64,000 nucleotides of DNA from positions 1 through 64,000 of the forward strand of contig JAJEAC010000048.1 in the NCBI GenBank assembly GCA_022824315.1. The letters are read 5' to 3'. The notes beneath the pieces were generated by a model. The model ran no database searches. It worked only from the letters and a program-made list of their open reading frames with translations, and was not told where the DNA came from. A program made the position numbers and the translations under genes. Positions 39,861 to 53,082 of this stretch are shown in pieces (the stretch's first letter is position 1; every line of letters begins with the position of its first letter). This stretch comes from Silicimonas sp. (GTDB lineage Bacteria > Pseudomonadota > Alphaproteobacteria > Rhodobacterales > Rhodobacteraceae).

Positions 39861-40256
39861 ATGAATTGTCGCGTTGGAATTGCCACGACCGCTTTCGCCC
39901 TGACTGCGGGTGTGTCCGACGCCGACGCACAGAGCGTGGAATCCCTTGCCCCGGCATCATTGGAGGAGTTGGTCAAGGAGGGCGCAAGCGTTTATCGGAG
40001 CCGGTGCGCCGAATGTCACGGGTTGAACGGAGAAGGCCAGTGGCAGGACCATGATGCCGCACCACGGCTTGCCGGGAAACTTGCGCCTCTGTCGGTAGAG
40101 AGAATTGCACTTCTGATCATCCAGGGCGGCTCGTACATGCCGCGATTTGACAGCCTGACCCATCGGGAAATAGCCGCTGTCGCCACCTTTGTCCGGAATT
40201 CGTTCGGCAACAATCACGGTATCGTAACAGAAGAGGAAGTTGCCGGGCATCGTTGA
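39861..40256 (+). CDS. Periplasmic class I cytochrome c (monoheme)
   Basis: 131 residues. A short signal peptide (MNCRVGIATTAFALTAG, cleavage near ADA/QS) leads into a cytochrome c domain. The heme-binding motif is CAECH, followed by GLNGEGQW, and the distal Met is probably in GGSYMPRFDSLTH, with the C-terminal helix IAAVATFVRNSFG. It resembles small electron acceptors for quinoprotein dehydrogenases. It is the first gene of the plus-strand set that faces the PQQ-dehydrogenase operon. Confidence 0.88.
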   Translation: MNCRVGIATTAFALTAGVSDADAQSVESLAPASLEELVKEGASVYRSRCAECHGLNGEGQWQDHDAAPRLAGKLAPLSVERIALLIIQGGSYMPRFDSLTHREIAAVATFVRNSFGNNHGIVTEEEVAGHR

Positions 40257-41646: not shown

Positions 41647-42501
41647 ATGGCGCTGTTCAAACGCGAACTTGCAATGCTCCGCGACGTTCTGCAGTCATGC
41701 GGAAGTTCAGCTGTTCGCACGGCATTCGCGTTGCGAAACCTCTGCAAACCTCCGGATTCCTTGATGATCGCGTTCTATCGGATCGGTTTTTTTGCGCTTC
41801 TGATGGCCCTGTGGCAAGTCGCAGCCACCAGGATGGGCACCAACGTCCTGCCAAGTCCCCTTGCGACTTGGCGGGCGGCGCAGACGCTTGTCGGCGAAGG
41901 GCAGTTGATCGTGGCCATCGGCGACAGTCTGACAGTGTACCTCAGCGGTTTCGCCATCGCTATCATCGTAGGCGTGCCCCTCGGCGTGGTCATGGGGGGA
42001 TTTCGGGTTCTCGGAAAGACGCTTGAGGTCTACGTCTTCGCGCTGGCTGCGACGCCGAGAGTCGCCTTCATCCCGCTGATCATCGTGTTGCTGGGCCTAG
42101 GGGTTGAGGCCAAGACTTTCATCGTCTTTCTCGGCGCGTTGATGCCGATCCTGATCAATGCCTATGCCGGCGTTCTTGCAGCCGATGAGGAACTGCTGGA
42201 AATGGCCAGATCCGTTGGCACCCCGCGCGGTCGGATATTCACGAGCATTGTCTTGCCAGGTGCAGTTCCCTTCGTCATCGTCGGATTGCGCATCGGCGCA
42301 ACGATCGGCTTGATCAACACGGTTGTGGCCGAACTTTATACCGCGGTGCGGGGACTGGGTGGGCTGCTGGCGATCTATGGCAACACGTTCCGCATGGCAG
42401 AGTATTTCGTTGTCGTTCTGACACTCGCGACAGTCGGAGTGATTGTTACAGAGAGCCTACGTTACATCGAAGCACGTGTATCACGCTGGCGCGACGTCTA
42501 G
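41647..42501 (+). CDS. NitT/TauT-type ABC transporter permease
   Basis: 284 residues. ATG 41647 is preceded by GGAGG; ATG 41635 and the later ATG 41764 are alternatives, because the N-terminal 40 residues are hydrophilic and atypical. Membrane helices start at IGFFALLMALWQVAATRM. The cytoplasmic EAA-type loop (EELLEMARSVGTPRGR) is intact. The protein belongs to the SsuC/TauC/NrtB group that imports sulfonates, nitrate, cyanate or pyrimidine precursors. It lies about 150 bp after the LysR gene and 63 bp before the binding-protein gene. Confidence 0.88.
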   Translation: MALFKRELAMLRDVLQSCGSSAVRTAFALRNLCKPPDSLMIAFYRIGFFALLMALWQVAATRMGTNVLPSPLATWRAAQTLVGEGQLIVAIGDSLTVYLSGFAIAIIVGVPLGVVMGGFRVLGKTLEVYVFALAATPRVAFIPLIIVLLGLGVEAKTFIVFLGALMPILINAYAGVLAADEELLEMARSVGTPRGRIFTSIVLPGAVPFVIVGLRIGATIGLINTVVAELYTAVRGLGGLLAIYGNTFRMAEYFVVVLTLATVGVIVTESLRYIEARVSRWRDV

Positions 42502-42564
42502 CTGGCCGCAATCCCGTGGCCAGAGGACACTTGCCAAGCGTGGTCAATTTTGGAGGACTCAAGA

Positions 42565-43587
42565 ATGGCAGAAGTTTTCATCAGGTCTCTGGCGGCCCTT
42601 GTGGCCGTGTTCATTGCACTCGGGCACTCTGCGCATGCGGATCCCCTGCGACTGATCGTGACCCACCTGCAACCGCCGCTGGTGCCGAATTCGGTCATGG
42701 ACCTTGCATTGGAGCTCGGATATTTCGAGCGCGAAGGCGTCGACGTGGAGTTGGTCCGCGTCCAGCAGACGCCGTTGGCCGTTGCAGCCATCCTTGCAGG
42801 AGAGGGCGACATGGCCAACGTCGGCGTCAGTGCCGTGTTGCAGTTGCACGCCCTGGGGGACGATACACTTAAGGCTGTCACCTCGCCCAACAAGTCGCTG
42901 CCGTTCCTGATCGCCGCGAAGGATGAGATCTCCAGTACGTCCGATCTGCAAGGTCGCGTTTTTGGTGTGGGACGGATCGGCAGCCTTGATCATTCACTAA
43001 GCAGCAATGTGCTCGAGGCTCATGGCATTTCAATGGCAGCGATGGAAGTGGTAACGCTTGGCCAGCCCGCAGTGCGGGCGCGGGCGCTGGTCGCTGGTCA
43101 GGTAGATGCGACGACCATGTCCATTGGCACGTGGCTTTCCATCCCGAACAGGTCAGGCATAGCGATCCTCGTTCCGTCGGATGACTATTACGCGCGGGCA
43201 CCTGTGGTGAACAAGGTCAACGTGGTGACCGCCGAGGTCCTGGAAACCCGGCGCGACGATGTCATCGCCATGGTGCGCGCGTTGACAAGGATCTCGCGTG
43301 ACTTCGCTGCCGACCCCGATCTCTGGGCTTCCGCGATGGCGACGCATGCGCCGCAGATGGCGCCTGAAACACTTCGGGAACTGGCCCAGAGCTTTGCCGG
43401 AGGCTGGAGCGTAAATGGCGGAATGGGCCGTGGCGAACTGCAGTTCACGCAGGACTGGGTGTACCGGACGGACGATTTCAAGGACGCGGCGCCAGTCGAT
43501 CTGGATGACTGGGTAGATTTCACCGTGGCTGATGACGTGATCGCAGAACTCGGGGTTGTTGAAGATGCGGACGCTCCGTCACGATGA
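42565..43587 (+). CDS. NitT/TauT-type (NMT1/SsuA-like) periplasmic substrate-binding protein
   Basis: 340 residues from ATG 42565 with GGAGG eight nt upstream. The signal peptide MAEVFIRSLAALVAVFIALG is cleaved near AHA/DP. The mature protein has LALELGYFEREGVDVELVRV, AILAGEGDMANVGVSAVLQL and DLQGRVFGVGRIGSLDHSLS, the standard NMT1/SsuA layout. Its stop overlaps the ATPase start by 4 nt. The ligand is unknown. Given the neighbours it could be an alcohol-related organic compound, a metal chelate or a cofactor. Confidence 0.88.
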   Translation: MAEVFIRSLAALVAVFIALGHSAHADPLRLIVTHLQPPLVPNSVMDLALELGYFEREGVDVELVRVQQTPLAVAAILAGEGDMANVGVSAVLQLHALGDDTLKAVTSPNKSLPFLIAAKDEISSTSDLQGRVFGVGRIGSLDHSLSSNVLEAHGISMAAMEVVTLGQPAVRARALVAGQVDATTMSIGTWLSIPNRSGIAILVPSDDYYARAPVVNKVNVVTAEVLETRRDDVIAMVRALTRISRDFAADPDLWASAMATHAPQMAPETLRELAQSFAGGWSVNGGMGRGELQFTQDWVYRTDDFKDAAPVDLDDWVDFTVADDVIAELGVVEDADAPSR

Positions 43588-44453
43588 TGTCCGCCGGAGA
43601 TCCGGTGGAGCGATCTGGCGATGCGGAGGTTCGGGTCGTTCTGGACCGCGTTTGCAAGAGCTTCGCCCCTGCCGGCGGAGGCGATCGGGTTTCGGCCCTG
43701 CAAGACGCCTCGCTATCCGTCGGGAGCGGAAAATTTCTTGCCCTGCTTGGGCCGTCAGGATGCGGAAAGACCACCCTGCTGCGACTTGTGGACGGCCTGA
43801 TCCAGCCCGACAGCGGAACGGTGCACGTATTTGGTGCGCCCCCCCGACCTGGTCCGGACATCGGCTTTGTGTTCCAGTCCTTTCGGCTCATTCCTTGGGC
43901 CAAGGTTACTCGAAACGTGGATTTCTCTCTGCGCGATCTCGGGCTGACCGCCGCGGAACGGGAAGAGCGGACGCGCCGAGTCATCAAGATGGTGGGGTTG
44001 ACTCGCTTTGCCAATGCCTATCCGGCAACGTTGTCCGGCGGCATGAAGCAGCGGGTGGCTTTGGCGCGCGCATTGGCGCCGGAACCCAAGGTCCTGTTGA
44101 TGGACGAGCCCTTTGCCAGCATCGACGCGCAGACTCGCGAATTGATGCAGATCGAACTGATGCGCATATGGACCCGCCGCCGCCCAGCCGTGTTGTTCGT
44201 GACCCACAGCGTGGACGAAGCGATCATATTGGCAGACGAGATCGCGTTGATGGGACCGAGCCCCGGCAAGGTGATCGAAACCGTTCCGGTCGATCTGGAA
44301 CGGCCGCGCTGGACCTACGACGCCCGTGCGGAACCGCGCTACGTCGAGCTTCGCAAGCACCTCTCCAGCCGGATGAGGCAGTTCGTGCTGAGCGATCCGG
44401 CGTCCGAGTTTTTTGGTCGAGATCTCGTTCAGCCGGACGGGATGGGTTCCTGA
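43584..44453 (+). CDS. NitT/TauT-type ABC transporter ATP-binding protein
   Basis: 289 residues. Walker A is LLGPSGCGKTTLLR, the Q-loop is GFVFQSFRLIPWAKV, the signature is LSGGMKQRVALARAL, Walker B is KVLLMDEPFASIDAQTRE and the switch His is in VLFVTHSVDEA. This is the SsuB/TauB/NrtD pattern. It is last in the permease-binding protein-ATPase set; the cytochrome gene follows 28 bp later and may be in the same transcript. Confidence 0.94.
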   Translation: MMSAGDPVERSGDAEVRVVLDRVCKSFAPAGGGDRVSALQDASLSVGSGKFLALLGPSGCGKTTLLRLVDGLIQPDSGTVHVFGAPPRPGPDIGFVFQSFRLIPWAKVTRNVDFSLRDLGLTAAEREERTRRVIKMVGLTRFANAYPATLSGGMKQRVALARALAPEPKVLLMDEPFASIDAQTRELMQIELMRIWTRRRPAVLFVTHSVDEAIILADEIALMGPSPGKVIETVPVDLERPRWTYDARAEPRYVELRKHLSSRMRQFVLSDPASEFFGRDLVQPDGMGS

Positions 44454-44481
44454 GACTTGCGGTCGGCCGCGGTTAGTTAGG

Positions 44482-45426
44482 ATGGCAAGAATGGCAAAGA
44501 TGGCAACGGCACTCGGAGCCCGGAAATCGGGAGAGACCGGCATTCGCTCGTCACGCCTGTCCGGCGGACCAGTGCTTCTGCGGCTCGCGACCATGTTTGG
44601 AATGTCGCTCGCTGCCATGCTGCCGACTGCACCGGTCTTCGCAGAGAGCAACGCGACCGGCGACGGCGCCGCGGGCCAGGTTGCCTTCGCAAGGCGGTGC
44701 GCCACCTGCCACGTGGTTGTCAACGAGTCCGGCGAGACGCTCGCGGGCCGCAAGAGCAAGACTGGCCCCAATCTTTATGGCATCGCAATGCACGGTCTGG
44801 CCATGGTTCCGGATTTTCGCTACAGCGCTTCGATGGTTGCGGCCGGTGAAGCCGACCTCGTCTGGACCGAAGAGAACTTCGTCGGTTACGTGATTGACCC
44901 GACAGGGTGGCTGCGCGCTACGCTTGACGATCCTCGTGCACGCTCCAAGATGACCTTCAAGTTGCGCAAGGAAGACGATGCACGTAACATTTTTGCGTAT
45001 CTGGCCGCCCTCGATCCAGAGGGCCCCTTGGAGTCTGCATCGGAAGACATCCCCAAACCTGAAGTGGAAACGGAGCAGGTGTTCGTTGCGATCCAGGTTT
45101 CCTACGCCTCGGATCAGGCTGATCGCGGCGAGAAACGTTACAAGAAGGATTGTCAGGAATGCCATGGAGACGACCTCAAGGGCGGGTTGAACGGCGGCGC
45201 GCCCCTGCGCGGGTTGGCATTCGGGAAAAAATACTTCGACGCGATGCCAGCGTCGGTGATGTTCGAGTACATGAGCGCGACAATGCCGCCGAACGCGCCA
45301 GGGCGGTATTCCGAAAACACGTACGCCGAACTCATGGCCTACATCCTCAAGCGAAACGGATTCAAGGCCGGCGCACCGCTTCCAACGGACCTCGATGCGC
45401 TCGACCAAATGACCATCGAAAAGTGA
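44482..45426 (+). CDS. Exported diheme cytochrome c
   Basis: 314 residues from ATG 44482; ATGs at 44491 and 44500 are equally possible. A hydrophobic export signal ends near PVFA/ES after a long basic N-region. Domain 1 has heme motif CATCH with KTGPNLYGI and a probable Met ligand in ARSKMTFKL. Domain 2 has CQECH with a probable Met in SATMPPNAPGRYS. A Glu/Pro-rich linker separates them. Diheme c-type cytochromes of this kind shuttle electrons from periplasmic dehydrogenases to an oxidase. It is next to the M50-like gene and faces the PQQ-dehydrogenase operon. Confidence 0.88.
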   Translation: MARMAKMATALGARKSGETGIRSSRLSGGPVLLRLATMFGMSLAAMLPTAPVFAESNATGDGAAGQVAFARRCATCHVVVNESGETLAGRKSKTGPNLYGIAMHGLAMVPDFRYSASMVAAGEADLVWTEENFVGYVIDPTGWLRATLDDPRARSKMTFKLRKEDDARNIFAYLAALDPEGPLESASEDIPKPEVETEQVFVAIQVSYASDQADRGEKRYKKDCQECHGDDLKGGLNGGAPLRGLAFGKKYFDAMPASVMFEYMSATMPPNAPGRYSENTYAELMAYILKRNGFKAGAPLPTDLDALDQMTIEK

Positions 45427-45472: not shown

Positions 45473-46084
45473 TTGATGGGGTTGTCGGACATTTCGCTTC
45501 AGATGGTCGGCTTTCGAGTCTTGACGCTGTTGCTCCTTGCCGGCCTGCATGGCGGCCTCGTGGCGGGGGCGGCGGACCTGCTTGGCGACAAGGGGCCCAA
45601 GCACGACGGGCGCCTGACCATCGTTCCGACGAACCACGTGGATCTTGTCGGAGCGTTCAGTCTGGTCGTGTTCGGATTGGGTTGGACGAAGCAGGTTTCG
45701 GTTGACGTCCGGGAAATGCGTGTCGGTCGGATCGGCATCATTATCGTCATCCTGACCGGTTTCATTGGCTTGCTTGTCGCCGCTGCGATTCTCGATGCCC
45801 TTATCCGGCCGGCCCTGACAATGTTGCCATACACGACAGGTTTGGCCACCGCGGCATTCCTTCACGCCGCCGCCAGCCTGACGATCTGGTTTGCCTTGCT
45901 AAGCCTGATCCCGGTCCCGCCGCTCACCGGCGGGCTGATTCTCGGCGCATACGGTATCCGTGTTCCTCAGCGGTTTCAGTGGATCCTGACGGCGGCGTTG
46001 GTCGCGGCGGTGGCGTTCGACGTGTTTCACCGGCATCTGGGCCCGACCCATGCCTTCCTGACGCGCGTCATGCTCGGGGAGTAG
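45473..46084 (+). CDS. M50-like (site-2-protease fold) membrane protein lacking HExxH
   Basis: 203 residues with about five membrane helices. The region LLSLIPVPPLTGG corresponds to the M50 'N/LxPxPPLDGG' motif, but the Asp is Thr here. The N-terminal helix contains only LHGGLVAGAAD where HExxH should be, so the zinc site is absent. It is probably not a protease and may act as a membrane chaperone or partner. It follows the diheme cytochrome gene by 46 bp and converges with the ABC-2/PQQ operon. I do not know a characterised homologue. Confidence 0.6.
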   Translation: MMGLSDISLQMVGFRVLTLLLLAGLHGGLVAGAADLLGDKGPKHDGRLTIVPTNHVDLVGAFSLVVFGLGWTKQVSVDVREMRVGRIGIIIVILTGFIGLLVAAAILDALIRPALTMLPYTTGLATAAFLHAAASLTIWFALLSLIPVPPLTGGLILGAYGIRVPQRFQWILTAALVAAVAFDVFHRHLGPTHAFLTRVMLGE

Positions 46085-46091
46085 GCCGAAT

Positions 46092-46919
46092 TTACGCACC
46101 GCGACCGTCCGGGCCCGCCGAGGTCACACCATATCGGCCCAGGATGGCCGCCAATGTGCCGTCCTCCTTCATCTTCTCGAAAGCTTCGGTGATCTTGCGC
46201 TTCAGCGTCAAATCGCCTTTCCAAAGTCCGATGACCAGATTGTAGCGTGCGAGTTCATCAGGCAACGGCGCAACCCACCAGCCCGTCTTGGCCGCCAGCT
46301 CACTGGCCAGGAGTGCCTCCGTTATGCCGCCTGCGAGAGCGCCGTTCGAGATGCCATCGACCAGCAGGTCGGCATTGCGCATGACACGAACGGTGACGTT
46401 CCTGCGCCTAAGGTAACTTGACAGCTCGATGCGATCGAGACCGGAAACAAGGGTCAACGCACCCAGGCTGAGACCGCCGATGTCCTCAAGCGGCGCGGGC
46501 GCGATGACGGCCCAGCCGGTTTCGGCATAAGGCGGACCTGTGTCAAGAAACGACCGCGTCAGCGCCGAGTCCACAACGCCCCCGGCCAGAAGATGGCAGT
46601 TGGCGCGGCTAATGCCCCAGTTGCGCGGATTGAAGTCTCGGCCCATGGCATCGACCGGATTGAGCAACAGCCGGACGCCGATATGGTCTCTAATGGCCTC
46701 GAGCAATTCGACATCTATCCCGGGCCGGTGGGGATCTCCGGTTACCAGTGGCGGATAATCTCTGGGAATGCAGGCCCGGATTGCGTCGTTCGCTTCGACT
46801 TCGCGAAGCGAAGTGTCGGGAGGCAGAAACGTGACCAGCAGCATCAAGCCAACGACCAGAAGAAGCCCGCCTATATCGCCCGCAAGTCGACGTAGCGTGA
46901 GCATGATCCGCCCCCTCAT
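46092..46919 (-). CDS. Periplasmic SBP_bac_3-type binding protein of the PQQ-dehydrogenase operon (PedA-like)
   Basis: 275 residues. An N-terminal hydrophobic segment (GGLLLVVGLMLLVTFL) is a signal or membrane anchor. The domain resembles extracellular solute-binding family 3 (IRACIPRDYPPLV, PGIDVELLEAIRDHIGVRL, and the late KRKITEAFEKMKEDGTLAAI). Similar proteins are named 'quinoprotein dehydrogenase-associated putative ABC transporter substrate-binding protein', or MoxJ/XoxJ, in methylotrophs. It is the last gene of the operon, overlapping the permease stop by 4 nt. An alternative start is 46904. Confidence 0.78.
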   Translation of the reverse strand: MRGRIMLTLRRLAGDIGGLLLVVGLMLLVTFLPPDTSLREVEANDAIRACIPRDYPPLVTGDPHRPGIDVELLEAIRDHIGVRLLLNPVDAMGRDFNPRNWGISRANCHLLAGGVVDSALTRSFLDTGPPYAETGWAVIAPAPLEDIGGLSLGALTLVSGLDRIELSSYLRRRNVTVRVMRNADLLVDGISNGALAGGITEALLASELAAKTGWWVAPLPDELARYNLVIGLWKGDLTLKRKITEAFEKMKEDGTLAAILGRYGVTSAGPDGRGA

Positions 46920-47770
46920 GTCTTGCGGAAATCGAACAGCGCAATCGCGAACAGGACCACTCCGGCAATGAGCATGATCGCAATGCCAAGCCGGGGATCG
47001 AACTGGTTGTAGTCAATCAATGCGCCGCGCAGCGCGTCCACCGCATATGTCAGCGGATTGTACTGAACGAGGGTGACCAGCCATTCGGGGTAGACGACGC
47101 GGGTCTGCGCTTGCGTCAAGGCCGGATCAAGGGGAAAGATCGAGCTGGATGTAAAGTACAGCGGAAGGATGACCGCGTTCGAGAAGACGCCAAAGCCCGC
47201 GAAACTGCGGACGCGATTGGCGATCACAACGCCCAGCGAGGTCAGCGCGAAGGCGAGCATGGCCATCAGGCCAAGCGCCTTCAACACATCGAGCCAAGTC
47301 AGCGGCACGTCGGCGAAGCGGGCCAGCAGCAGAACCAGGCAGCCATGAATGACCGCCACCGTTGCGCCACCCAACACCTTTCCCAACAGCACCGAGCCGC
47401 GTGACATCGGCGAGACCAGTACCTCACGCAGGAAACCGAACTCGCGGTCCCAGATGACCGAAACGGCCGACTGGACCGACGTGTACATGATGTTGAGCGC
47501 CACGACGGCGGGAAAGATGAACTGCAGGTAGGTGAAGGGCACGACGAAGCTCACCTCGCCGTAGACCTCGCCTCGAAAATAGGGATTGAGGCCGATACCG
47601 AGAATCAAGACCCAAAGAATGGGCCGGCTGATGCCGCCGATCAACTGGCCACGATCCCGCATGGAGCGTTTCACTTCGCGCAGCCAAAGGCCGTAAAGGC
47701 CGCCGAGCTCGATCAGAAACGCCGGCTGCCGGCCGCTGGACTCGATGTCAGTGGTTTCTCCGGAGGTCAT
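46916..47770 (-). CDS. ABC-2 type transporter permease (PedC-like)
   Basis: 284 residues with six predicted helices and the ABC-2 conserved block (LREVLVSPMSRGSVLLGKVLGGATVA). An amphipathic N-terminal segment precedes the first helix, typical of NodJ/DrrB-type exporters. It overlaps the ATPase by 4 nt and the following binding-protein gene by 4 nt. ABC-2 permeases usually export, so pairing with two solute-binding-like proteins is atypical and is the hallmark of the PedA1A2BC kind of system. Confidence 0.88.
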   Translation of the reverse strand: MTSGETTDIESSGRQPAFLIELGGLYGLWLREVKRSMRDRGQLIGGISRPILWVLILGIGLNPYFRGEVYGEVSFVVPFTYLQFIFPAVVALNIMYTSVQSAVSVIWDREFGFLREVLVSPMSRGSVLLGKVLGGATVAVIHGCLVLLLARFADVPLTWLDVLKALGLMAMLAFALTSLGVVIANRVRSFAGFGVFSNAVILPLYFTSSSIFPLDPALTQAQTRVVYPEWLVTLVQYNPLTYAVDALRGALIDYNQFDPRLGIAIMLIAGVVLFAIALFDFRKT

Positions 47771-48762
47771 CTCGTGTGCTCCCCGCCACGCTTCCCGAAA
47801 GCGAAGGTGCGCTCGCGGGCGCCGGCGGCTTGGTCGCGAATTTCTCGGCCGGTCAGAGACAGAAACACTGTCGCGAGGCTCGGACGCTCAACTGCCAGAG
47901 AGCGAACGCGGCCACCGTAATCAGCAAAGACGGTTTCGGCGAACGCGTCGTCTGAAGCAAGCAGGATGGCATCGTGCGCTTCGCTCACAAGGCGATCTGC
48001 AAAGCGGCTGAGAATTTCCCGACGATCTTCCTCTGATCTGGGTGCGATGCGTAGTATCTGCTGACCATATTCCTGCTTCAGCGCCTCTGGAGTGCCAAGT
48101 GCCAGGACTTTGCCGTGATCTACGATGCAGGCACGGTCACAACCCTCGACTTCCTCGATGTAATGCGTGGTCACAAGCACGGTGATCCGGCGTTCGATCC
48201 CCAGTCGGCGGATGTAGGACCAGATACGGTCGCGGGATTGGGCGTCAAGCCCGACCGTCGGTTCGTCGAGCAGAAGGATCTCGGCGTCGTGGATCAAAGC
48301 GCGGGCAATCTCCAGCCGGCGTTTCATTCCTGACGACAGCATCTGGACCGGCTTGTCGGTCCAATCGGTCAGTTCCACGAGCGCCAGCATTTCGTGGATG
48401 CGTTGTCGCCGCAGCTTTCGCGGCACGCCAAAAACCAACCCGTGCAATTCAAGGTTCTCGCGTACCGTGAGCCGATCGTCGAGGCTGGGCTCCTGGAATA
48501 CGAGGCCAAGGCGGCGGCGGGCGGCACGCGACTGTTTGACGACATCGCGACCGCAGATCTGTGCAGCGCCGCTGTCAGGGCGCAGGAGCGTGCAAAGGAT
48601 GTGCATGAGCGTCGTCTTGCCAGCACCATTGGGCCCAAGCAGGGCGAAAAGCTCCTTTTCGTCGACGTCGAAGCTGACCGCGTCCAGCGCCAAGGTACGC
48701 CCGTACCGTTTGGAAACCGCGTCGACACGGATGGCAGGTCTAGGGATTGGCGCCGGTGACAT
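47767..48762 (-). CDS. ABC-2 type transporter ATP-binding protein (PedB-like)
   Basis: 331 residues. Walker A is LLGPNGAGKTTLMHIL, the Q-loop is LGLVFQEPSLDDRLTV, the signature is LSSGMKRRLEIARALI, Walker B is EILLLDEPTVGLDAQ and the H-loop is VLVTTHYIEE. The C-terminal extension of about 90 residues after the cassette is usual for NodI/DrrA-type exporters. The start overlaps the stop of the upstream binding-protein gene (TGATG). Confidence 0.93.
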   Translation of the reverse strand: MSPAPIPRPAIRVDAVSKRYGRTLALDAVSFDVDEKELFALLGPNGAGKTTLMHILCTLLRPDSGAAQICGRDVVKQSRAARRRLGLVFQEPSLDDRLTVRENLELHGLVFGVPRKLRRQRIHEMLALVELTDWTDKPVQMLSSGMKRRLEIARALIHDAEILLLDEPTVGLDAQSRDRIWSYIRRLGIERRITVLVTTHYIEEVEGCDRACIVDHGKVLALGTPEALKQEYGQQILRIAPRSEEDRREILSRFADRLVSEAHDAILLASDDAFAETVFADYGGRVRSLAVERPSLATVFLSLTGREIRDQAAGARERTFAFGKRGGEHTR

Positions 48763-49637
48763 CAGCGTTTCGCCGTCGCGGGGAACCGATAGTCATCAAG
48801 AATGTCCGAAATCGTCCCATCTGCGATAAGTGCGGCAATCGCCTCGTCTATGGCGGTGCGCAGAAACGTCTCGTCTCGGAGCATCATTGCACCGACGCCC
48901 AGGGCTGTGGGCGGCAAAGGTCTTGGATCAATCCTGCGCAGTTCAGAAAATGCGGGTTCCGTACGTTGTTTGGCCCAAAGCGTCGGAGCCCAGATCAGGG
49001 CCACATCTGCCGAACCGTCCAAAAGCGACTCCAGTGCCAGATCGTTTGTGCCCTTGGGGTGCACGGGCCAGCGGTCCCGTGCCGGCAACGCGGAGACGTA
49101 TGACACCAGCCGCACATGCGCTGAAGTGCCCAACGTCGCTCCGATCGGCCGCCCGGATGGAAGATCGCCCAGCGAGCCGATGTTCGGGTCGCTCGCGACA
49201 AAGATGTACTCGGCCTCATAATAGGGCCGGGTCAATGTGGCCCATTGGGAATAACCGCCGGGGATCAGCTTGAAGCCCAGATGCATGTCGCAATGCTCCA
49301 CCAGAAGCGCGTAGACCTTGGTGATGTCTTCGGCAACGAAGTTCTTTTCCACCATATATTGCTGCGGTTCCAGCAACAGGGCCGAGGCGACGGCGTCAGC
49401 GATGGCGGCGGCCACTTCCCAGTCGGGATCGCGCCGGTCTACGCAGTATCGAAGCTGGGACTCGTCGAGACGCCGGCCGAAGGCCCAGTGGTTTGGAGCG
49501 AAAGGCTTGAAGAAGAACTCGGGCTCTTCAGCCGAACCCGGGTGGGGCGACAATCCGGCCAGCAGAACCGCCAGCGCCAGAAACCGACTGGCAATGCACA
49601 GGAACGTGAACAGGGCAGGCAAGTCCGGACCTCTCAA
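48762..49637 (-). CDS. Second periplasmic binding protein of the PQQ-dehydrogenase operon (PedA/MoxJ-like)
   Basis: 291 residues with a long signal peptide (CIASRFLALAVLLAGLSPHP, cleavage near GSA/EE). The mature protein opens with a characteristic LDESQLRYCVDRRDPDWEVA and has SBP_bac_3-like features (FVAEDITKVYALLVEHCDMH, PIGATLGTSAHVRLV). Two Cys are conserved in spacing. It lies 64 bp after the PQQ dehydrogenase gene and overlaps the ATPase gene. Such proteins are associated with dehydrogenase maturation, cytochrome c delivery or lanthanide/PQQ handling; the precise role is not established. Confidence 0.75.
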   Translation of the reverse strand: MRGPDLPALFTFLCIASRFLALAVLLAGLSPHPGSAEEPEFFFKPFAPNHWAFGRRLDESQLRYCVDRRDPDWEVAAAIADAVASALLLEPQQYMVEKNFVAEDITKVYALLVEHCDMHLGFKLIPGGYSQWATLTRPYYEAEYIFVASDPNIGSLGDLPSGRPIGATLGTSAHVRLVSYVSALPARDRWPVHPKGTNDLALESLLDGSADVALIWAPTLWAKQRTEPAFSELRRIDPRPLPPTALGVGAMMLRDETFLRTAIDEAIAALIADGTISDILDDYRFPATAKR

Positions 49638-49701: not shown

Positions 49702-51447
49702 TCAGTCGGGAAGCGCGAAGACGTACAGCGCAATCGGATCGTTCGATGGCAGCCGCACCTCCGGCGTCAGTGACGCCAGGCGACCGAGGCCCGACGCGAA
49801 ATTCGCGGTGATCGCAACATACTGCTTGCCATTGGCGGTGTACGTGATTGGGAAGGACTCGAGCGAGTTGGTCAGCCTGCCGCTTTCCCAGAGCTTTTCG
49901 CCGGTCTCGTCGTCGAAAGCCATGAACTTGCGGTCCAGGCTGCCGACGAAGACCAGTCCGCCCCCGGTCGGCAGCGTCGAACTGGTGATTGGAGGACGCT
50001 GGCGGTATGACCACATTGTCGAACGGTCGTTCAGGTTGATGGCGTCAACGCGGCCGATGTTGCCGTCGCTGTCAGGGACCGGTACGCGAGAGTAGGTCTG
50101 ACGACCGCCCCCGGTATAGATCTCGCCAGGATCGAGCGGGTTGACCGTGGTGTTTGAGCAGAATTCCACCAGCGGCAAATAAAGCGCCTGCGTCCGCGGA
50201 CTATAGGCCGTGGCCTGCCAGGACTTGCCACCCGGGTCAGCCGGGCAGTTGAAGGTGGTCTCGCCGATCACGGGAATCACGTCAGGGTTGATGGTCTTGT
50301 CGCCGGTGTCTGGATCAATCGACAGCACAACGTTTTGCGGCACGGTCTCGACATCCCAAAGGTATTCGCCGGTGAATCGGTCGAGCGCCTCGATGATGCC
50401 GATCTTGCCGACCGTCACCGTCATCTTGCGCTCCTCACCGTCGACCGGCAGGTCAATCAGCATGCGCTCAAAGACATAGTCGAGGTCAAGCGAGTCGGTC
50501 TCGAGATGCTGGAAGTACCATTTCAGCTCGCCGGTACTCGCGTCGATGGCGAGTGTCGCGTTGGTATAGAGCGCCTCGTTGGTGACTCCGGGATCCGAAC
50601 TCGGAGGCACCAGCCCAGCCATCTCGATGTTCCACGGATAGACTTGACCAACGCCAGCGAAGAACAGGTTCTGCTCGGAATCGTAGGATCCCGCCATCCA
50701 GGCCGAAGCACCGTAGCGGCTTTCCAACGGCACTCCGTTCCAGCTGTTGCCCTCGGGCGTGTCGCCGCGGGCGATGGTATGGACGCGCCACAACTCCTCA
50801 CCGGTGTTGACATCATGCCCGGTGAAGAAGCACCCCCCCGGCTGTGCCCTGCTGCAGCCAGTCATGCCCTGGATGATTACGCCATTGGCGACAATCGGTC
50901 CGCTGGAAAACCCGAATCCATGCCTGTAATTGGCGACAGTCTTGTCCCAGATCAGATCGCCGGTCTTCGTGTCGAGCGCGAACAGATGGGCGTGACGGGT
51001 CGCGATGATCAGCTTGTCGTCGTAAATTGCCTTGTTGCGTACCCCTCTGATCGCGGCGTCATCCGGCAGATCGTATTCGTACTCCCAGATGAGATCGCCG
51101 GTGGCCCCGTCGAGGGCCTGGATCACGGCGTCGGAATTCTGGATGTAGACGATCCCATCGTGGGCCAAAGGGGTTTCCTGTGTGCGCCCGGGCGTCATCG
51201 CCCACGACCAGGCCAGCCTGAGGTCGCCGACGTTTTCCTTGTTGATCTGATCGAGCGGGCTGTAGCCCCAACCGTCGTATGTCCGCCGCCACATCAACCA
51301 GTCGCCGTCCGGCGGGTTCAGGAGCATTTCGTCGGTCACGGGTGTGACATTGTCGATTGGGTTGTCCTGCGCAACGACCGCCTGGGTGGACAGGCTCAAG
51401 GCAATCGCCGTCAAAAACAAGATTCCTTTCCGTTTGTTGATGGGCAT
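49702..51447 (-). CDS. PQQ-dependent alcohol dehydrogenase with lanthanide-type Asp-x-Asp active site
   Basis: 581 residues. A Sec signal peptide (cleavage near VVA/QD) precedes an eight-bladed beta-propeller with several tryptophan docking motifs (DGATGDLIWEYEY, DTKTGDLIWDKTV, DVNTGEELWRVHT, DASTGELKWYFQH, DRFTGEYLWDVET, DDETGEKLWESGR). The catalytic region reads LDLDYVFERM, so Asp321 is followed by Asp323, the extra metal-coordinating acid seen in lanthanide-dependent XoxF/PedH-type enzymes. The Arg of EALDRFTG fits the PQQ-contacting Arg. No vicinal Cys-Cys is present at the usual place (DDAAIRGVRNKA), and there is no fused cytochrome. It should oxidise a primary alcohol or aldehyde in the periplasm and pass electrons to a soluble cytochrome c. 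First gene of its operon. Confidence 0.9.
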   Translation of the reverse strand: MPINKRKGILFLTAIALSLSTQAVVAQDNPIDNVTPVTDEMLLNPPDGDWLMWRRTYDGWGYSPLDQINKENVGDLRLAWSWAMTPGRTQETPLAHDGIVYIQNSDAVIQALDGATGDLIWEYEYDLPDDAAIRGVRNKAIYDDKLIIATRHAHLFALDTKTGDLIWDKTVANYRHGFGFSSGPIVANGVIIQGMTGCSRAQPGGCFFTGHDVNTGEELWRVHTIARGDTPEGNSWNGVPLESRYGASAWMAGSYDSEQNLFFAGVGQVYPWNIEMAGLVPPSSDPGVTNEALYTNATLAIDASTGELKWYFQHLETDSLDLDYVFERMLIDLPVDGEERKMTVTVGKIGIIEALDRFTGEYLWDVETVPQNVVLSIDPDTGDKTINPDVIPVIGETTFNCPADPGGKSWQATAYSPRTQALYLPLVEFCSNTTVNPLDPGEIYTGGGRQTYSRVPVPDSDGNIGRVDAINLNDRSTMWSYRQRPPITSSTLPTGGGLVFVGSLDRKFMAFDDETGEKLWESGRLTNSLESFPITYTANGKQYVAITANFASGLGRLASLTPEVRLPSNDPIALYVFALPD

Positions 51448-52022: not shown

Positions 52023-52604
52023 TCAGCCTACTCTCGATTTGGTCAGCGATATTGTAGGGCGCCACCATGTGGCCGGACCTGGACGACGCCGGGGATGCCG
52101 ACGAGCCGAAGCCGCGGTCATGCCGTGCCCGCACCAGCAGCGCCAGTCGGCGGCAGCCCGCAGCACGGTGTTCGTGGAACACGTCCAACACGTCCCCTTC
52201 GGATCCATCACCGCGACGGCCTTCACCCCGTCCAGTCCTTTCGCCGCCGCGATGCCGTGGCGCAGGCCGCTCAGCCACCGCCCGGTCTTACGCTCCTCGA
52301 CCGGACGGCCCTGGCCGGGACGGCCGTCCGGGGCGTCGAAGTCGAGGCTGACAACGCCCAAGGGAACCCCGTCGCCGGTCACGGCGAAGGTCGTGTGTGG
52401 GTGCAGGCCCGGCGTTCCCGAGGCCCCCCTGTTGTGGCCGATCGTCCCGAGCCCGAAGCCGGCGGATCGCATGCTTGCGGTGATACCCGTCACCGACACG
52501 AACTCGCCCAGGATCCGAGACTTCCCCGGGCGCACCGCCTCTCGGTCGAGCAGGCGCACGACCTCAGGCAATTCGCCTTGTGCTAACCTGCTCAGTTGCC
52601 TCAT
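52023..52604 (-). mobile_element. Degenerate IS4/Tn5-like transposase remnant
   Basis: The 193-codon frame contains the middle part of an IS4-family transposase (GLHPHTTFAVTGDGVPLGVV, GRWLSGLRHGIAAAK, AVAVMDPKGTCW). The N-terminal DNA-binding part and the C-terminal YREK region are not recognisable, and conserved acidic residues are partly lost. It is therefore inactive. It lies between the PQQ-ADH upstream region and tRNA-Met, marking an old insertion point. Confidence 0.6.
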
Positions 52605-53005: not shown

Positions 53006-53082
53006 TGGTAGCGGAGGAGGGACTTGAACCCCCGACACAAGGATTATGATTCCTCTGCTCTGACCAACTGAGCTACTCCGCC
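53006..53082 (-). tRNA. tRNA-Met (CAT anticodon), CCA encoded
   Basis: The reverse complement folds as a full cloverleaf. The acceptor stem is GGCGGAG/CTCCGCT with discriminator A and encoded CCA; the D-stem is GCTC/GAGC; the anticodon stem is GAGGA/TCCTT around loop ATCATAA; the T-loop is GGTTCAAGTCC. Anticodon CAT also occurs in tRNA-Ile2 (lysidine-modified), but the body looks like elongator Met. Confidence 0.9.

Follow-up and report, generated by a model that had tools for sequence, protein, structure and literature searches.

Positions 49702-51447 of the window, the whole 64,000-nucleotide stretch of Silicimonas sp. DNA analyzed here, encode a sorbose-type quinoprotein with D-x-D and a variant metal site; it is accompanied by a conserved gene module in a host without detected PQQ biosynthesis genes. 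The original prediction described a PQQ alcohol dehydrogenase in which the catalytic Asp is followed two residues later by another Asp, and concluded that the enzyme should need a lanthanide. The observation was confirmed and its interpretation is partly supported. A rare-earth requirement of the quinoprotein is possible; obligate or preferred lanthanide use is, judging from its residues, somewhat less likely than not. The gene and the residues of its metal site are as follows.

49702..51447, minus strand: PQQ-type dehydrogenase gene, 581 aa, with an N-terminal signal sequence (TIGR03075, PF01011, PDB sequence matches, AF2 model)
50479..50487, minus strand: D-x-D, with the catalytic Asp321 and with Asp323 at the lanthanide-Asp position (aligned with XoxF, PedH-like and SDH sequences)
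50830..50856, minus strand: Cys198-Cys206 loop in place of the XoxF GGEFGxRG hairpin, with Ser199 in the Glu-ligand slot (alignment)
50644..50646, minus strand: Gln268 in the Asn-ligand slot (XoxF Asn256/276) (alignment)

The open reading frame lies on the minus strand, a point on which the original prediction was silent. Its G+C content at codon positions 1/2/3 (0.58/0.45/0.79), together with a dN/dS of 0.04-0.20 relative to its relatives, identifies a protein-coding gene under purifying selection; the dN/dS values rule out a pseudogene. Both LDLDYVFERM and the loop GMTGCSRAQPGGCFFTGHD are found in the translated protein, which is the one full-length PQQ dehydrogenase of the host genome. The protein scored 352 bits with TIGR03075 (methanol/ethanol PQQ dehydrogenase), not reaching the curated cut-off of 480, 211 bits with PF01011, and 254 bits with the NCBI 'acido-empty-quinoprotein' model (cut-off 650). 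Its assignment as a PQQ-type dehydrogenase is borne out by the TIGR03075 and PF01011 scores, the nearest structures and the structural model. Between the quinoprotein gene and glyA, an open frame (window 52023-52604) has by eye the look of a transposase remnant, and a tRNA-Met (CAT) gene is located on the minus strand at window positions 53006-53082.

The best PDB sequence matches of the quinoprotein were 4CVB, 9M2C, 7WMD, 22VI and 4MH1. Matches to PedH and XoxF were much weaker, with 328 bits to 4CVB compared with 137 bits to XoxF 4MAE. An AlphaFold2 model with a mean pLDDT of 85, for which 28 relatives were aligned, gave Z-scores of 51.1 for 9M2C, 50.7 for 4CVB, 47.1-47.2 for PedH and 45.0-46.0 for XoxF. 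A maximum-likelihood tree of 61 proteins, which was a quick search without bootstrap and contains several long branches, placed the quinoprotein inside a 43-member superclade (SH-aLRT 100) together with the K. vulgare sorbose-type protein L096, which itself scores 927 bits against 4MH1. In this phylogeny of PQQ-ADH types the sorbose-dehydrogenase/type I superclade is separate from XoxF, PedH-like and D-x-T alcohol dehydrogenases, and D-x-E members, including the 4MH1 type, are nested among the D-x-D members. By sequence and fold prediction, the quinoprotein is a member of this superclade of sorbose dehydrogenases and type I PQQ-ADHs (4CVB, DepA, 4MH1) and does not group with XoxF or PedH; membership in either of the latter is ruled out by the tree together with the ligand residues. 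The original prediction was correct in stating that the protein is not a standard XoxF methanol dehydrogenase: it lies outside XoxF in the tree, has no Cys-Cys, and differs in its ligand residues.

With the type I PQQ-ADH/SDH enzymes (4CVB, the P. saccharoketogenes ADH; 7WMD/9M2C, of the DepA type; 22VI; 4MH1, the K. vulgare SDH) the quinoprotein shares the full-length fold (Z 48-51), at about 35-39% identity, as well as a Cys-bracketed loop that replaces the Glu hairpin and the absence of a vicinal Cys-Cys. It differs from them in its motif, which is D-x-E (WDSE/WDQE) in the type I enzymes and D-x-D (LDLD) in the quinoprotein, and in the Asn slot, which is Gly/Ala-like in the former and Gln268 in the latter. 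With XoxF and PedH-ExaF it has in common the eight-bladed PQQ propeller and a D-x-D in the matching place, but those enzymes, to which it is 25-28% identical, contain Glu and Asn ligands and a vicinal Cys-Cys, none of which is present in the quinoprotein. In the alignment, the sequence around the position of the vicinal Cys-Cys of XoxF is VRNKA.

Asp321 and Asp323 in LDLDYVFERM align with Asp318 and Asp320 of AM1 XoxF. The alignment is bridged by the relative L047, a clear XoxF (1075 bits to La-XoxF 6OC5) in whose WDFDG motif the AM1 residues Asp318/Asp320 are found. Both acids therefore occupy the catalytic and lanthanide Asp positions as originally stated and do not fall away from the catalytic Asp. 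In 28 relatives with identities down to 39%, Asp321 never varies, and Asp323 is conserved in at least 90%, with one D-M-E; this conservation rules out a D-x-D that arose by chance. Cys198 and Cys206 are also at least 90% conserved in the 28 relatives. Hence the Cys-containing loop that had been singled out as distinctive is present, but it is a family trait and not peculiar to this protein.

In the structures of lanthanide enzymes the protein ligands are Glu, Asn, Asp and Asp, i.e. Glu172/Asn256/Asp299/Asp301 in SolV and Glu192/Asn276/Asp318/Asp320 in AM1 (PMC11845868). Among the 43 superclade members, the Glu slot is occupied by S, G, Y, N, A or F in 39, by D in two and by E in two, as read from a gapped loop alignment in which the residue assigned to this slot may be off by one or two positions; the sequences of the close clade are clearly without a conserved acid there. 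The Asn-ligand slot contains Asn in none of the 43 aligned members. As Ser199, in the Glu slot, lies inside the Cys loop, the loop is a substitute for the Glu-bearing hairpin of XoxF. A Cys198-Cys206 disulfide is likely. By residue count, not by measurement, the quinoprotein has two side-chain carboxylates at the metal site, like MxaF, and XoxF has three. A sub-branch of the relatives (L102, L104, L105, L106, L037) carries D-M-E for D-x-D and a Glu in the Cys loop (GCExxxxxGC), a combination that hints at co-variation of the two sites. In another group, the alphaproteobacterial PQQ dehydrogenases L110-L117, a D-x-D within WDWDE occurs together with a complete Glu/Asn/Asp/Asp set. Since these proteins keep Glu and Asn, the classical four-ligand set is easily recognized where it is present, and the quinoprotein is without it. 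L110-L117 are, from their residues, stronger lanthanide-enzyme candidates than the quinoprotein at 49702-51447.

E. coli Gcd is known as a Ca/Mg enzyme, and its K-12 record reads WDMD, i.e. D-x-D. The motif of Gcd has been noted in the literature, in which Gcd is described as binding Ca, Mg, Zn and Sr (PMC11996626). Gcd and the quinoprotein share the D-x-D, and the Asn slot is not Asn in either; Gcd differs in being membrane-anchored, in having Asp at the Glu slot, and in its very distant position in the tree. Of the claim that the enzyme should need a lanthanide, the position of the D-x-D is therefore upheld, whereas the equation of D-x-D alone with a lanthanide requirement is not, given Ser199, Gln268 and the WDMD of Gcd. 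Nearby sorbose dehydrogenases, which are described as calcium enzymes, contain D-x-E, and K. vulgare enzymes of the D-x-E type are active with PQQ and Ca2+ (PMC10301637). A metal assay of a D-x-D member of the sorbose-type clade was not found in the literature. The D-x-D protein of K. vulgare D3_3 (L100, the orthologue of L095) was considered as an assayed member and ruled out: the four assayed KvADHs have 81-87% mutual identity and are DepA-like, so that L100 is not among them.

The neighborhood of the quinoprotein gene contains two ABC systems, a membrane protein and a cytochrome.

48762..49637, minus strand: MoxJ-like periplasmic binding protein, SBP1 (TIGR03871 29.8 bits, E 4e-7, cut-off 212)
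47767..48762, minus strand: ABC ATPase of the DrrA/PQQ_ABC_ATP type (TIGR01188 300.5 bits and TIGR03864 238 bits, both under cut-off; synteny)
46916..47770, minus strand: ABC-2 permease, PedC/DrrB paralogue (TIGR03861 120 bits; co-occurrence in 149 family genomes)
46092..46919, minus strand: second family-3 binding protein, SBP2 (PF00497 34.8 bits; synteny)
45473..46084, plus strand: conserved 203-aa membrane protein, M50-like by eye alone (kept in the module)
44413..45426, plus strand: dihaem c-type cytochrome (CATCH, CQECH), start codon unsure (PF13442, two CxxCH motifs, synteny)
43584..44453, plus strand: ABC ATPase (SaoA/TauB-like) belonging to the second ABC system (NF040729 232.7 bits, under cut-off; synteny)
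42553..43587, plus strand: NMT1/SsuA-like ABC substrate-binding protein (PF09084 66.9 bits, TIGR01728 74 bits)
41764..42495, plus strand: BPD-type (SsuC/SaoP-like) permease belonging to the second ABC system (61% in tblastn to the permease of Paracoccus aminophilus pAMI5)

Downstream of the quinoprotein gene and on the same strand follow, in this order, SBP1, the DrrA-type ATPase, the ABC-2 permease and SBP2. The genes of the membrane protein and the dihaem cytochrome c are convergent to this block. SBP1 adjoins the dehydrogenase gene in most relatives. The 203-aa membrane protein (45473..46084) gave no match to Pfam or NCBIfam. The dihaem cytochrome (44413..45426) is a candidate for the electron acceptor of the quinoprotein. 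A small c-type-cytochrome-like ORF (window 39861-40256), near a LysR gene and a few kb from the module, is a possible further electron carrier. The SsuABC-like importer at 41764-44453 often accompanies the quinoprotein module, also on the Paracoccus aminophilus plasmid pAMI5, whose permease protein matches PF00528 and the SaoP/SsuC models; the synteny of its SaoA/TauB-like ATPase (43584..44453) is kept in about half of the relatives. Suspected disruption of the importer permease at 41.2-42.5 kb was ruled out, as the gene is intact at 41764-42495.

A tblastn comparison with 43 loci revealed that the block is retained in most close relatives (Silicimonas, Roseitranquillus, Albidovulum, Pelagibacterium, Devosia and others). 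In a family sample of 149 genomes, one per genus, the ABC-2 permease (E up to 1e-50) was present in exactly the seven genomes that contain the quinoprotein (E up to 1e-80), with three copies of each in G104. Under random placement, the probability of this exact overlap of 7/149 is 4e-12, a value that ignores kinship. In a class-wide sample of 385 genomes, the permease was found in the host alone (E 1e-50). At the same threshold of E 1e-50, none of the 16 more distant quinoprotein carriers of that sample matched the permease, which rules out a module universal for the superclade. One of the seven family carriers, G025, combines a D-x-E enzyme with the same module. The module is thus tied to this quinoprotein branch and is not specific to D-x-D, and its value as a lanthanide marker is weakened by G025.

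In P. putida, PedA1A2BC is required for lanthanide-dependent growth at nanomolar La (PMC6839425). Like PedA1A2BC and Lut, the transporter in the window comprises a binding protein, an ATPase and an ABC-2 permease beside a quinoprotein. Unlike those systems, its permease and ATPase remain well under the PedC and PQQ_ABC cut-offs, and the beta-propeller PedA2 is missing among the module genes, which instead encode two binding proteins. The permease scored 120 bits with the PedC model TIGR03861 and did not reach the cut-off of 241, whereas true PedC proteins in seven other genomes scored 403-479 bits. This difference rules out a true PedABC/Lut transporter and assigns the transporter to a paralogous line, which could work like PedABC. 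S. algicola contains both permease kinds, a true PedC and the window type.

PQQ biosynthesis genes were searched for in the genomes of the host and its relatives. The host genome contains no PqqC match over the curated cut-off, and its best match to the PqqE model is partial (48 bits), like that in all control genomes. Neither PqqC nor PqqE exceeded the curated cut-offs in G000, G002, G005 and S. algicola; the search was positive in G008, G010, G063 and others. A pqqC gene was found in four of 20 close-clade carriers. The other 16, without a match to pqqC or a true pqqE, include five isolates: S. algicola DSM 103371, Pelagibacterium xiamenense, Devosia limi, Oceaniovalibus sp. ACAM 378 and Devosia oryzisoli. 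Among the seven quinoprotein carriers of the family sample, six gave no pqqC match. With E. coli PqqU as the query, no match was obtained in the host. Its genome is a draft of 94.6% completeness, and in principle a gap could account for the missing pqq genes. Countering this possibility is the agreement of the isolates and two congeners with the host, all of which gave no PqqC match and only weak cross-matches to the PqqE model. PqqU is reported to be nearly absent from Alphaproteobacteria, which has been read as a sign of PQQ production, and PQQ scavenging is widespread in bacteria (PMC12124388). The hosts examined here seem to use PQQ yet neither make it nor have PqqU.

Sequence, fold prediction, alignment, synteny, co-occurrence and the lack of pqqC/E matches can be joined in one reading, to which we assign a probability of about 0.6: a sorbose-type periplasmic quinoprotein with a PQQ-metal site containing Ca2+ or a light lanthanide would deliver electrons to the cytochrome of its module and use scavenged PQQ. 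As a periplasmic member of the sorbose-dehydrogenase/type I superclade, the PQQ-dependent dehydrogenase would oxidize a multicarbon alcohol such as a sugar or polyol at a PQQ-metal centre, with Asp321, Asp323 and probably Gln268 holding the latter in place. Asp321 would serve as the catalytic base, and Asp323 as a second carboxylate that partly compensates for the missing Glu ligand, such that either Ca2+ or a light lanthanide could serve as the metal; an obligate need for a lanthanide would be possible, but D-x-D alone does not imply it. The module's own c-type cytochrome would accept the electrons, and PQQ would be scavenged, not made. Arguing against this reading is the near-invariant Asp323, which would favor a special metal because a pure Ca2+ enzyme is expected to tolerate Ala, Ser or Thr at the +2 position, like MxaF and PedE. 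The module, by analogy, resembles PedA1A2BC, the lanthanide growth system of P. putida, and the proposed substrate class is drawn from 35-40% identity.

It is conceivable, although we hesitate to prefer it, that the quinoprotein is a true lanthanide dehydrogenase in which D-x-D suffices, Gln268, loop carbonyls and water fill the coordination shell, and the ABC transporter and the MoxJ-like protein supply the lanthanide. The near-invariance of D-x-D in the clade is consistent with such an enzyme, as is modelling of D-x-D sorbose-type enzymes, which predicts lanthanide binding (PMC11996626). A PedC/PQQ_ABC-related transporter and a MoxJ_2-related binding protein adjoin the gene, and PedA1A2BC is essential for growth at nanomolar La (PMC6839425). 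However, the Glu and Asn ligands are substituted (Ser199, Gln268), the permease scores far below true PedC (120 versus 403-479 bits) and occurs beside it in S. algicola, the D-x-E enzyme of G025 has the same module, and D-x-D is also found in E. coli Gcd. The last point is a precedent for an ordinary Ca2+ (or Mg2+) quinoprotein, Gcd being known as a Ca/Mg enzyme. Such an enzyme, in which the acid at +2 would replace the lost Glu and the net charge would equal that of the calcium enzymes, likewise falls short of being the expected outcome. The two carboxylates of the site, as in MxaF, compared with three in XoxF (alignment; ligand sets in PMC11845868), point to it, as do the nearest structures, which are D-x-E and described as calcium enzymes, and the K. 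vulgare D-x-E-type enzymes that run on PQQ and Ca2+ (PMC10301637). Against it stand the strict retention of Asp, not Glu, at +2 across the close clade and a literature that gave no assay of a D-x-D clade member.

An empty quinoprotein fold that has lost the use of PQQ, in a host making no PQQ, is improbable. The lack of pqqC/pqqE and PqqU matches in the host and the kinship to the 'acido-empty-quinoprotein' model (254 bits, cut-off 650) would agree with it, but the floor Trp250, Lys348 and Asp321 are all invariant in the 28 relatives and the gene is under purifying selection. Trp250 and Lys348 align with the PQQ-contact positions of methanol dehydrogenases. Scavenging of PQQ, moreover, is common among bacteria (PMC12124388). 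We also regard as unlikely, though less so, a wider scheme in which the sorbose-type clade resides in hosts without PQQ synthesis or PqqU and a dedicated, hitherto undescribed ABC/binding-protein module delivers the metal, PQQ or their complex. As part of that scheme, and with the same reserve, Asp-x-Asp plus Gln without Glu would constitute a third kind of metal site, neither classical calcium nor lanthanide.

A lanthanide prediction for D-x-D sorbose-type dehydrogenases was already published in general form in 2025 (PMC11996626). Voutsinos 2025 described a third sorbose-dehydrogenase clade, with D-x-D only, in which lanthanide binding was modelled against 4CVB (PMC11996626). The quinoprotein shares with that clade of putative lanthanide SDHs from the ocean its relatedness to SDH, the exclusive D-x-D and a model closest to 4CVB. 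Likened by description, not by sequence, the two very probably represent the same wider group. In Voutsinos 2025, D-x-D is the basis for the proposed lanthanide use, and the Glu/Asn substitutions seen in the quinoprotein do not enter (PMC11996626). New in the present study are the conserved module with the co-occurrence of permease and quinoprotein, and carriers without pqqC/pqqE matches. Within a limited coverage of the literature, we know of no earlier account that describes the replaced Glu and Asn ligands, the co-occurrence seen for the module, or the PQQ-less hosts.

In surveys, D-x-D is now taken as a direct sign of lanthanide use. The sorbose-type group accounts for 8% of PQQ-DHs and makes up much of the set of marine enzymes claimed to use lanthanides (PMC11996626). 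Should this group as a whole lack two of the four protein ligands, the inference of lanthanide use needs experiment. The quinoprotein clade provides a clean test case, with a single such enzyme in the host, a conserved module, and cultured hosts such as Silicimonas algicola and Devosia limi. The hosts of the clade apparently use PQQ without synthesis or a known importer, although Alphaproteobacteria are regarded mainly as producers (PMC12124388).
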